Source: Campylobacterales bacterium (GTDB lineage: Bacteria > Campylobacterota > Campylobacteria > Campylobacterales > JALSKU01). Taken from it: a stretch of DNA of 43,813 nucleotides. The stretch is from positions 1 to 43,813 of the forward strand of contig JAMOOV010000093.1 in the NCBI GenBank assembly GCA_027065125.1, read 5' to 3'. Made by a program: the position numbers and the translations under genes. The stretch's first letter is position 1. The number at the start of each line of letters is the position of its first letter. This document shows positions 1,392 through 5,193 of this stretch, in pieces. Under the pieces are notes generated by a model, which did no database searches, had not been told where the DNA came from, and was given only the letters and a program-made list of their open reading frames with translations.

Positions 1392-2528
1392 TTGCCTGAT
1401 TTAACTCTTGTTCTACTTGGAGCGGGAAATTCTACAAGATTTAATCAAAAATTTAAGAAACAGTGGATGAGGATAGGAGAAGATCCTTTATGGCTTTTCG
1501 TAGCAAAAAGATTACAAACATTTGCTGATTTTAAACAGATCATAGTAGTAGCAAATAAAGAAGAGATAGAGTATATGAAAAATTTTGCCGATTATAAATT
1601 TGTACCGGGTGGAAAAGAGAGACAAATATCTCTTCAAAATGCACTTTTGCAGGTTGATAGCAAATATGTACTTGTTACTGATGTGGCAAGAGCTTGTGTT
1701 CAAAAAAGAGTCGTAGATGATTTGATAGAAAACAGAACCAAAGCCGATATAATTGTACCGTACATAAAAGTATCGGATACCGTTCACTATAAAAATAGTT
1801 TTTTGGATAGAGATAAGTTAAAACTTATACAAACACCTCAATTATCTCAAACAAAAATTCTCAAAAATGCTTTGAATACAACAGAGATATTTACCGACGA
1901 CAGTACTGCGATACTCAAAAATGGTGGAACAGTTTTTTATGTGGAGGGTGATACATCCGCCACCAAATTGACATATGCAAATGATCTATCCAAGCTTGAA
2001 TGCTTACAAAAACCTTGTAAAGATATTTTTACCGGTATAGGATATGATGTTCACCCTTTTGAAAATGATAAAGATATGTTTTTATGTGGTGTTAGGATAG
2101 ATGTTCCATACGGCTTTAAAGCTCATTCCGACGGAGATGTAGCCATCCATGCCATCATAGATGCTCTGCTTGGAAGTATCGGGGCAGGAGATATCGGAGA
2201 GCTTTTTCCCGATAGCGATAATAGATATAAAAATATCGATTCAAAGATATTGCTGAAAAAGGTTTGTAATTTTGTTTCAAATGTAGGATGCGATATCGTA
2301 AATATAGACATAACCGTTATCGCACAAAAGCCAAAGCTATCTGACTATAAAAAAAGTATGAGAAAAAACATATCAAAACTACTGAATATACCCTATGTAA
2401 AAGTAAACATCAAAGCGACGACCACTGAAAAACTTGGATTTGTAGGCAGAGAAGAGGGAGTTGCCGTGGAAGCCATAGCTAATACAAAATATACCGACTG
2501 GACATCAAAACAAGAGGATAGCATATGA
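1392..2528 (+). CDS. ispDF: Bifunctional IspD/IspF (MEP pathway)
   Basis: N-term IspD nucleotidyltransferase (LLGAGNSTRF), C-term IspF (GIGYDVHPF, AHSDGDVAIHAIIDALLG); TTG start after aagga RBS. Confidence 0.93.
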   Translation: MPDLTLVLLGAGNSTRFNQKFKKQWMRIGEDPLWLFVAKRLQTFADFKQIIVVANKEEIEYMKNFADYKFVPGGKERQISLQNALLQVDSKYVLVTDVARACVQKRVVDDLIENRTKADIIVPYIKVSDTVHYKNSFLDRDKLKLIQTPQLSQTKILKNALNTTEIFTDDSTAILKNGGTVFYVEGDTSATKLTYANDLSKLECLQKPCKDIFTGIGYDVHPFENDKDMFLCGVRIDVPYGFKAHSDGDVAIHAIIDALLGSIGAGDIGELFPDSDNRYKNIDSKILLKKVCNFVSNVGCDIVNIDITVIAQKPKLSDYKKSMRKNISKLLNIPYVKVNIKATTTEKLGFVGREEGVAVEAIANTKYTDWTSKQEDSI

Positions 2529-2635
2529 AATACTCCATAAAAAGAATTTTATTCTTGCCAAGTGCAAGCGGCAAAGCTTTAGTGAGAGGAATTTCTGAGG
2601 AGCTTGGCTCCGATGAAAGGAGAAATAAAATATGA
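2525..2635 (+). CDS. Putative 36-aa ORF between ispDF and the response regulator
   Basis: ATG at 2525 overlaps ispDF stop (ATGA); its TGA overlaps the next gene's ATG (ATGA); MKYSIKRILFLPSASGKALVRGISEELGSDERRNKI. Confidence 0.3.
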   Translation: MKYSIKRILFLPSASGKALVRGISEELGSDERRNKI

Positions 2636-3531
2636 AAATTTTAATCATAGAGAATGAGATATATCTTGCACAAAGTATATCTTCAAGATTGACAGAAGTG
2701 GGGTATAACTGTAAAATAGTAGCTACCATAAAAGATTCTCTTGAAGAGAAAGATGATTATGAAGTTATTTTGCTATCGACAAATATATCCGGACAAAATT
2801 TTTATCCTGCGATTGAAAAATATAAAAAATCTATCATTATTCTTTTGATATCCTACATAAGTAACGATACTGTCTCAAAACCCTTTAAGATGGGTGTTGA
2901 CGACTATATACTAAAACCTTTTATGATAGAAGAACTTATTAGAAAAATTGACCACCTTTTTGAATATAAAAAATTAAAAAAAGAAAATATATTTTATAAA
3001 ACATATATGGACAATCTATTTAAAAATAGCTCAATCAAACAAACTTTATCAAAAAAGATAAATTTACCAGTATTGATAAAAAGCACTTATCAAAAATTAA
3101 CTGATAAACTTGTGTATGAGTTTGCTAAAAGTATCGATAATATGCCTATTTTTATCTCTCTTGATTCATTGGATGCTTTTAATAAGATACAAGAGCAAGA
3201 AGCCAATACTTTTATATATCTAATCAATTTTCAAAGTCTCAAAAAGAATGAAAAAACAAAATTATTATCTATGATAGAAAATAGAAAAGTCATAATTTCA
3301 ACCACGAACTCAAATGAGCAAATTGATATCAAAATCAAAACTATAGCTATCGATAGTTATAATAAAATATATGAAAGCGGAGATATACTTTCTATAGATG
3401 ATTATGTAAAGTATATTGTATTGAGTTTTCAAAATAGTTTCACAGATACTGAACTTAGTAAAAAACTCGGAATTTCAAGAAAAAGTTTATGGGAAAAGAG
3501 AAAAAAATATGGAATCAATAAGAAAAAATAA
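2632..3531 (+). CDS. Atypical response regulator, HP1021/CemR-like, with degenerate NtrC-type central domain and Fis-type HTH
   Basis: REC-like N-term lacking the phospho-acceptor Asp (VILLSTNISG); central LPVLIKSTYQ...VIISTTN resembling AAA+ without Walker A; C-term TELSKKLGISRKSLWEKRKKYGI; position after ispDF. Confidence 0.8.
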   Translation: MKILIIENEIYLAQSISSRLTEVGYNCKIVATIKDSLEEKDDYEVILLSTNISGQNFYPAIEKYKKSIIILLISYISNDTVSKPFKMGVDDYILKPFMIEELIRKIDHLFEYKKLKKENIFYKTYMDNLFKNSSIKQTLSKKINLPVLIKSTYQKLTDKLVYEFAKSIDNMPIFISLDSLDAFNKIQEQEANTFIYLINFQSLKKNEKTKLLSMIENRKVIISTTNSNEQIDIKIKTIAIDSYNKIYESGDILSIDDYVKYIVLSFQNSFTDTELSKKLGISRKSLWEKRKKYGINKKK

Positions 3532-4708
3532 CAATCTTAAAGAGTTGCATCTTGACAAAGAGGCTCTTGCCACCCTCTCTCTTGCAAAAGAGGGTATTTT
3601 AAAGCCTATTGAAAAGTTGATGGATGAAAAAGAAGCTGAAAATGTTAGAAAAACGAGACAATATAAAAATCAATTTTTACCTTTTCCTTTTATATTGGCT
3701 CCAGCAGGTAAAAGAAATAAAGAAGTTTTAAAAAATACCAAAAAAAATGAAATTTTAAAACTGATGGTTAATAAACAATTTATGGGCTATATAAAAACTA
3801 AGAGTGTCTATAAAATTGATAAGCAAAAAAGAATAAAAGCTATATTTGGCACATATGATAAAACTCATCCGGGAGTCGTAGATACTCTAAAAAGACTTGG
3901 AGAGTATGCTATAAGCGGTCAATATGAAATAGAGTGCAATGATATAAAAAAGGCAAAACAGACAATTTCGGATGCAAAAAAAGCCATAGATGCAAAAAAA
4001 ACAACAGCCATCATGATGGCAGCAAAACCTCTTCATAGAGCACATGAAAGATTGATCAGAATAACATTAGAAAACACTGATCTTTTGGTACTCTTTCTAT
4101 TAAAACCATATAAACAAGATGTTTTATCTTATGAAATAAGATACAAAACTTTAAGATACTTTGTAGATAACTTTTTGCCAAAAAATAGAGTTATTATAGT
4201 ACCTTTTGAAAATACATACATTTTTGCAGGATACAATAATGCTATACTTGATTCGATAGCTGCCAAAAACTTTGGTTGTACCGATATAGTTCTTGGACAA
4301 AATCACTCCGGTATCGGTATATTTTATGACCATGACAGGATCAATACCATATTGGATACTGTAAAAGATATCAATATAAATGTCAATATAGTAAATGAAT
4401 TTGTATACTGCAACCAATGCAAAACACTTGTCAGTACAAAAACTTGTCCACATGGAAAACATCATCATATCTCATATCACTCCCCATCTATATTGGAGAT
4501 TTTAAAATCAGGACTTTTACCTCCTGCTGTACTTGTTAGAAAAGAAATATCGGCTATTTTGCTTAGTGAACTTTTTAAAAATAGATTTGAAGATTTAAGT
4601 AAGTTATATGATGCTATTATGCCAAGCTCCGGACTACTTGAAGAACATGATGAGAGTGATTTTTATATAAAATTGCTTGAATTATACCAAACAACATCTT
4701 TAACATAG
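3509..4708 (+). CDS. ATP-sulfurylase-like (sulfate adenylyltransferase family) protein with divergent active-site motifs
   Basis: PUA-like N-term, MAAKPLHRAHE (cf. QTRNPxHRAHE), LGQNHSGIG (cf. VGRDHAGVG), CxxC...CPHGKHHH putative Zn motif. Confidence 0.8.
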   Translation: MESIRKNNNLKELHLDKEALATLSLAKEGILKPIEKLMDEKEAENVRKTRQYKNQFLPFPFILAPAGKRNKEVLKNTKKNEILKLMVNKQFMGYIKTKSVYKIDKQKRIKAIFGTYDKTHPGVVDTLKRLGEYAISGQYEIECNDIKKAKQTISDAKKAIDAKKTTAIMMAAKPLHRAHERLIRITLENTDLLVLFLLKPYKQDVLSYEIRYKTLRYFVDNFLPKNRVIIVPFENTYIFAGYNNAILDSIAAKNFGCTDIVLGQNHSGIGIFYDHDRINTILDTVKDININVNIVNEFVYCNQCKTLVSTKTCPHGKHHHISYHSPSILEILKSGLLPPAVLVRKEISAILLSELFKNRFEDLSKLYDAIMPSSGLLEEHDESDFYIKLLELYQTTSLT

Positions 4709-4716
4709 GATATTTT

Positions 4717-5193
4717 ATGAGAAAACTCTTTTTGACATTTTTTTATACCGGATTGTCTCCTTTTGCTCCAGGAACCGTAGGTAGCATAGCTGCTGCGATA
4801 ATAGGATATATTTTTTTACAATACCTTCCCATATCTACACTAACTCTTTTTTCTATATTTATTACAGTAATTGCCGTAAAAGAGATTGATAAGTATGAAA
4901 AAGAACACAACTCCCATGATCCTAAAGAAATCGTTATAGATGAAGTTGTGGGAGTGTGGCTCGCTTTTGTTTTAAGTTCTTCTACGATATTCCAAATGGT
5001 TTTATCTCTTGTATTTTTTAGGATTTACGATATATGGAAACCCTCTATAATCGGCAAAATAGACAAGGAATATAACGGAGGTATATCAGTCATGGGAGAT
5101 GATATAGTTGCTGGTATTTTAGCTGGCATCTCAAGTGCGATAACTTTTCAAGCTTATAATTATCTTCTCATGCAAGGCTATATAACTTTTTAA
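4717..5193 (+). CDS. pgpA: Phosphatidylglycerophosphatase A
   Basis: FYTGLSPFAPGTVGS, VIDEVVGVW motifs, hydrophobic helices. Confidence 0.9.
   Translation: MRKLFLTFFYTGLSPFAPGTVGSIAAAIIGYIFLQYLPISTLTLFSIFITVIAVKEIDKYEKEHNSHDPKEIVIDEVVGVWLAFVLSSSTIFQMVLSLVFFRIYDIWKPSIIGKIDKEYNGGISVMGDDIVAGILAGISSAITFQAYNYLLMQGYITF

Follow-up and report, generated by a model that had tools for sequence, protein, structure and literature searches.

What does the ATP sulfurylase-like gene of the Campylobacterota actually do? Most genomes of this phylum carry it as 'sat', and sulfur-cycle studies read sulfate activation from it. In the window (the whole 43,813-nucleotide stretch of DNA that was analysed), the gene lies at 3509..4708 on the + strand, starts with ATG and encodes a protein of 399 aa with PUA_2 and PF01747 domains and an ATP-sulfurylase fold. 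By gene order it is the ortholog of Cj1609 of C. jejuni, and we refer to this Campylobacterota ATP-sulfurylase-fold ortholog here as satL. The first-pass annotation of the sequence called its product probably not a sulfate adenylyltransferase. This view is very probably correct: the sulfate-site motifs are consistently replaced, a search of the host genome found no enzyme that uses APS, and CysD and canonical Sat occur independently of satL.

The family fold is easily recognised, as had been claimed. The PF01747 match reaches 188.2 bits (E=1.6e-55; Pfam gathering score 24.3), PUA_2 is matched too, and an AlphaFold model with 35 orthologs in the input has a pLDDT of 89 and a pTM of 0.87. The 33 best PDB fold matches of this model are ATP-sulfurylase-fold entries, with those of Methanothermococcus and Thermus on top. 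By fold and PF01747 membership, satL is what one looks for in a sulfate adenylyltransferase (Sat, EC 2.7.7.4). The curated NCBIfam models give scores far under their cut-offs, 190.8 bits against 387 for the sulfate adenylyltransferase model NF003166 and 143.7 bits against 322.95 for TIGR00339, while a canonical Sat from the Campylobacterota passes NF003166 with 397.1 bits. The open reading frame is no product of chance or sequencing error, since the same substitutions recur in orthologs across the phylum and the median pairwise dN/dS is 0.08 (88 pairs; an approximate value, with synonymous sites near saturation and some pairs reusing the same sequence).

How much of the active site is left? 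In Sat structures, the Gln and Arg of the QTRN loop and the Arg of GRDH contact sulfate or APS. In the window, FQTRNPxHRAHE is replaced by MMAAKPLHRAHE (aa 169-180; 4013..4048, + strand), with MAAK in place of QTRN, so that the Q, T, R and N of the sulfate loop are all gone and HxxH is kept. GQNHSG (aa 263-268; 4295..4312, + strand) stands in place of GRDHAG, with Arg changed to Gln and Asp to Asn, and HSPSIL (aa 324-329; 4478..4495, + strand) occupies the position of the canonical SGTxxR loop, which is lost. We compared these residues between 127 satL orthologs, a sample weighted to near relatives, and 10 canonical Sat proteins. QTRN is replaced throughout the orthologs: the Q and R, present in all 10 canonical proteins, are absent from the listed residues of the 127, and the canonical-invariant Q, T, R and N have become M, L or I; A, S or N; A; and K, N or R, respectively. 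The loss of the loop Gln and Arg noted at first pass extends to these orthologs. The loss of the GRDHAG Arg, also noted, is true of the window (Gln) and of most orthologs (Q in 92, K in 24), but Arg still stands in 6 of the 127. Nearly all orthologs also have substitutions in the SGTxxR loop, whose S, T and R are invariant in canonical Sat, in the HHA/R pair and at the Arg and Asp of GRDHAG. Individual changes relative to canonical Sat include H to D at position 248, R to A at 252, R to Q or K at 264 and D to N or H at 265.

The HxxH catalytic histidines are present in the window, and P174, R177, H179 and E180 persist in the orthologs (H179 in 126 and E180 in all 127). The statement that HRAHE is kept is therefore correct for the window, but it does not apply family-wide: H176, retained in 118 of 127, is Asn or Thr in the other nine, including that of Sulfurovum mangrovi, and one ortholog (L049) reads TRAQ and has lost both histidines. 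H266, the His of GxxH, is retained in 123 and missing from four. Because of these exceptions, what satL conserves may be a function other than catalysis. New conserved residues (K199, N235, Y237, D248 and N265) surround the old pocket.

The most conserved parts of satL lie elsewhere. Conservation of the catalytic segments is 0.65-0.69 in satL versus 0.82-0.84 in canonical Sat, and that of the zinc segment is 0.81 versus 0.61. Judged by sequence, the constraint is shifted from the catalytic segments to the zinc/HHH segment and a new tail. The former, CxxC-x8-CPHGxHHH (CNQCKTLVSTKTCPHGKHHH, aa 301-320; 4409..4468, + strand), consists of a zinc motif as in Thermus and Methanothermococcus Sat and, behind it, an HHH run peculiar to satL; C301, C304, C313 and H315 are invariant in the 127 orthologs. 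The motif aligns with the zinc segments of 8A8D and 1V47, which places satL with the zinc-containing Sat subtype. The first-pass annotation had described the zinc cluster as extra, which is mistaken: the solved Thermus and Methanothermococcus enzymes carry CxxC...CPH, and the alignment indicates that the cluster is inherited from ordinary Sat, with only the HHH run and the C-tail being new. The tail (aa 356-399, about 44 aa; 4574..4705, + strand) ends in FYxxLxxLYQTTSLT and is not found in canonical Sat. (A resemblance of its QTTSLT end to clamp-binding peptides was considered but dropped, the final hydrophobic residue being missing.)

Is there any APS metabolism for satL to serve? A Sat would be expected to have a genomic partner that makes or uses APS, and in the host genome neither an APS kinase nor CysD was found, nor a recognisable CysH; a search for AprB, made without a positive control, was negative as well. 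The host genome does encode a 445-aa PAPS-reductase-superfamily protein (L159:1375-2712, beside a 249-aa ORF), which was rejected as CysH or CysD, as it scores far below all the respective cut-offs. CysD is a true ATP-sulfurylase subunit. It is found above cut-off in 40 of 200 Campylobacterota genomes, and satL is present in 33 of these 40 and in 128 of the 160 without CysD (a hand count from lists). The distribution of satL does not follow APS metabolism; it occurs equally with or without CysD. Canonical Sat is found in a few Campylobacterota genomes (L054-L057 and L006), at other loci and with its motifs kept, and in one genome (G122) its gene directly adjoins that of APS kinase. In the tree, satL and canonical Sat are split by a single branch (SH-aLRT 100; 2.84 changes per column), and the canonical proteins of the Campylobacterota group with Sat from outside the phylum.

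Of 298 Campylobacterota genomes, 239 (~80%) have PF01747, nearly always in single copy, and the diverse single-copy loci that were read were all satL, except for that of G122. In the host genome, satL is the sole PF01747 gene. The usual order is ispDF-cemR-satL-pgpA, represented in the window by ispDF (1392..2528), an atypical response regulator of the HP1021/Cj1608 kind (2632..3531; named CemR in PMC11334517), whose 3' end shares 23 bases with the 5' end of satL, and the phosphatidylglycerophosphatase A gene pgpA (4717..5193), all on the + strand. The C. jejuni-type gene order named at first pass was borne out: the regulator is directly upstream of satL in 93 of 113 loci, overlapping it in 86 of these 93 pairs, and pgpA is directly downstream in 86 of 113. 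The order ispDF-Cj1608-Cj1609 is described for C. jejuni (PMC4435418) and is present in two of its relatives (L058 and L068). Genomes that lack satL, in family f7 and among the Helicobacter relatives, mostly retain ispDF-cemR-pgpA, with satL cleanly gone. It is absent from most of f7, and two f7 genomes have it at another locus (L043 and L051), outside the operon. The gene that comes next there encodes a small lipoprotein (HP0838-like in L043), and satL faces another gene, the start of which resembles QueH (MLVHICCSVDSH). Two genomes of family f6 (G007 and G117) yielded neither satL nor a full-length CemR.

No relatives were found in viral contigs, and the plasmid collection yielded mostly ordinary Sat, plus one satL and one odd Sat from Phaeobacter. 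The former belongs to an ispDF-regulator-satL-pgpA locus on a 395-kb linear 'plasmid' record of Sulfurovum mangrovi (L033); this record might represent part of a chromosome, or else a chromid. The latter, on a Phaeobacter inhibens plasmid record (L032:6706-7949), is an unannotated, frame-broken Sat homologue with TGAN for QTRN and GRDHAG kept; within the plasmid collection it stands apart, as the best others are about 36% identical or less. In a scan of genome contigs, among 80 of 534 matches listed, the titles were of the Campylobacterota type, except for one 'Proteobacteria'.

Why has satL been retained? TraDIS scored Cj1609 as essential in C. jejuni and also in C. coli, but as non-essential in the C. 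lari and C. hyointestinalis strains examined (PMC10077673). As the transposon used there had a promoter and a putative terminator, polar effects on pgpA are possible; deletion of Cj1608 is viable (PMC11334517). Since the sulfate-binding residues are lost and the genomes have no use for APS, yet the gene is strictly conserved and scored essential in two pathogens, satL probably does another job. In aerotolerant derivatives of C. coli OR12, A290V in 'sat' is among about ten coding changes (PMC5366326), and a link to the oxygen-responsive CemR operon is possible.

We consider it about an even chance (roughly 0.5) that satL is, as was proposed at first pass, a re-tooled nucleotidyltransferase with an acceptor other than sulfate and, jointly with this, that it split off long ago from the zinc-containing ATP sulfurylases of the Thermus/Methanothermococcus type and has been inherited vertically. 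Such an enzyme would no longer make or consume APS. Most members would presumably still bind a nucleoside triphosphate at HxxH, and the nucleotidyl group would pass to an acceptor bulkier and less anionic than sulfate, as suggested by the changes of Q/R to Met-Leu-Ile/Ala, R to Gln/Lys and HHA to D. A part in shaping or regulating the new site, or the oligomer, may fall to the zinc/HHH segment and the tail, which are placed in the counterpart of domain III, the domain through which Methanothermococcus Sat dimerises; the zinc motif lies in this domain, which makes the dimer interface in both Methanothermococcus and Thermus Sat (PMC10322725). Besides the exceptions at HxxH and GxxH and the lower conservation of the catalytic segments, it counts against this reading that several lineages have lost satL cleanly while keeping ispDF-cemR-pgpA.

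Could the protein have given up catalysis altogether? A structural, binding or regulatory role via the zinc/His segment and the C-tail, possibly together with the co-encoded CemR, would agree with the shift of constraint to these parts, the orthologs that lack HxxH or GxxH, the loss of SGTxxR throughout and the overlap of most cemR-satL pairs. However, HxxH is kept in more than 90% of the orthologs (again in the sample weighted to near relatives) and H179 in all but one, and the conserved residues around the pocket fit a re-tooled site better than decay. A partnership with CemR is also at odds with Helicobacter, where CemR functions (PMC11334517) even though Helicobacter-like genomes lack satL. 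On balance, we regard a pseudoenzyme as less likely than not, but as a rival to be taken seriously. Improbable is the view of the database annotation, that satL is still an ATP sulfurylase with a rebuilt sulfate site, serving assimilation or the making of sulfonucleotides. A review of Sulfurimonas was puzzled by Sat-type ATPS in the absence of AprBA and attributed it to assimilation (PMC4584964), and a study of Nautilia PV-1 lists a sulfate adenylyltransferase, possibly satL, among its sulfur-respiration enzymes (PMC10092268). The fold, the PF01747 membership, the GRDHAG Arg of six orthologs and the Phaeobacter homologue, in which QTRN has varied, speak for this view; but in satL all sulfate-contact motifs are lost together, the scores fall far short of the curated cut-offs, satL shows no co-occurrence with CysD beyond its general frequency, and the search for an APS-using enzyme in the host genome was negative. 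Least credible of all is a functionless, decaying ATP-sulfurylase relic: the ancestral active site is indeed lost, and the gene has gone from the Helicobacter relatives and most of f7, but the dN/dS already contradicts decay, as do residues invariant across the order, the conserved operon and the essentiality of Cj1609.

The puzzle of Sat without AprBA disappears if satL is no ATP sulfurylase, and the marker gene then needs re-curation. The role of satL is possibly a core one in the Campylobacterota. We propose tentatively, at somewhat less than even odds, that satL is an adenylyl- or nucleotidyltransferase acting on a new acceptor, and that a wrong sulfur label hides its core function, which is essential to both C. 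jejuni and C. coli. With the gene scored essential in C. jejuni, which does not grow on sulfate, a core function can be tested for directly, and it might offer a narrow drug target.

How does satL compare with known systems? Its best matches by fold and sequence are the ATP sulfurylases of Thermus thermophilus (1V47) and Methanothermococcus thermolithotrophicus (8A8D/8A8G), with which it shares the three-domain fold, the PUA-like N domain and the CxxC...C zinc site; HxxH is common to satL and the Thermus enzyme. It differs from them in an identity of only ~25%, in the loss of QTRN, the GRDHAG Arg/Asp, HHA and SGTxxR, and in the added HHH run and C-tail. The canonical Sat of the Campylobacterota has the same fold and phylum, but differs in locus, motifs and tree position. 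The catalytic domain has weak profile and fold similarity to citrate lyase ligase and the HxGH nucleotidyltransferases (CoaD, NMNAT), which belong to another family and lack PUA-like and zinc domains. Cj1609 of C. jejuni, on the other hand, is of the same family and is labelled a sulfate adenylyltransferase by similarity only. Within a known fold family, satL stands out by its replaced sulfate site and by the new HHH run and C-terminal tail.
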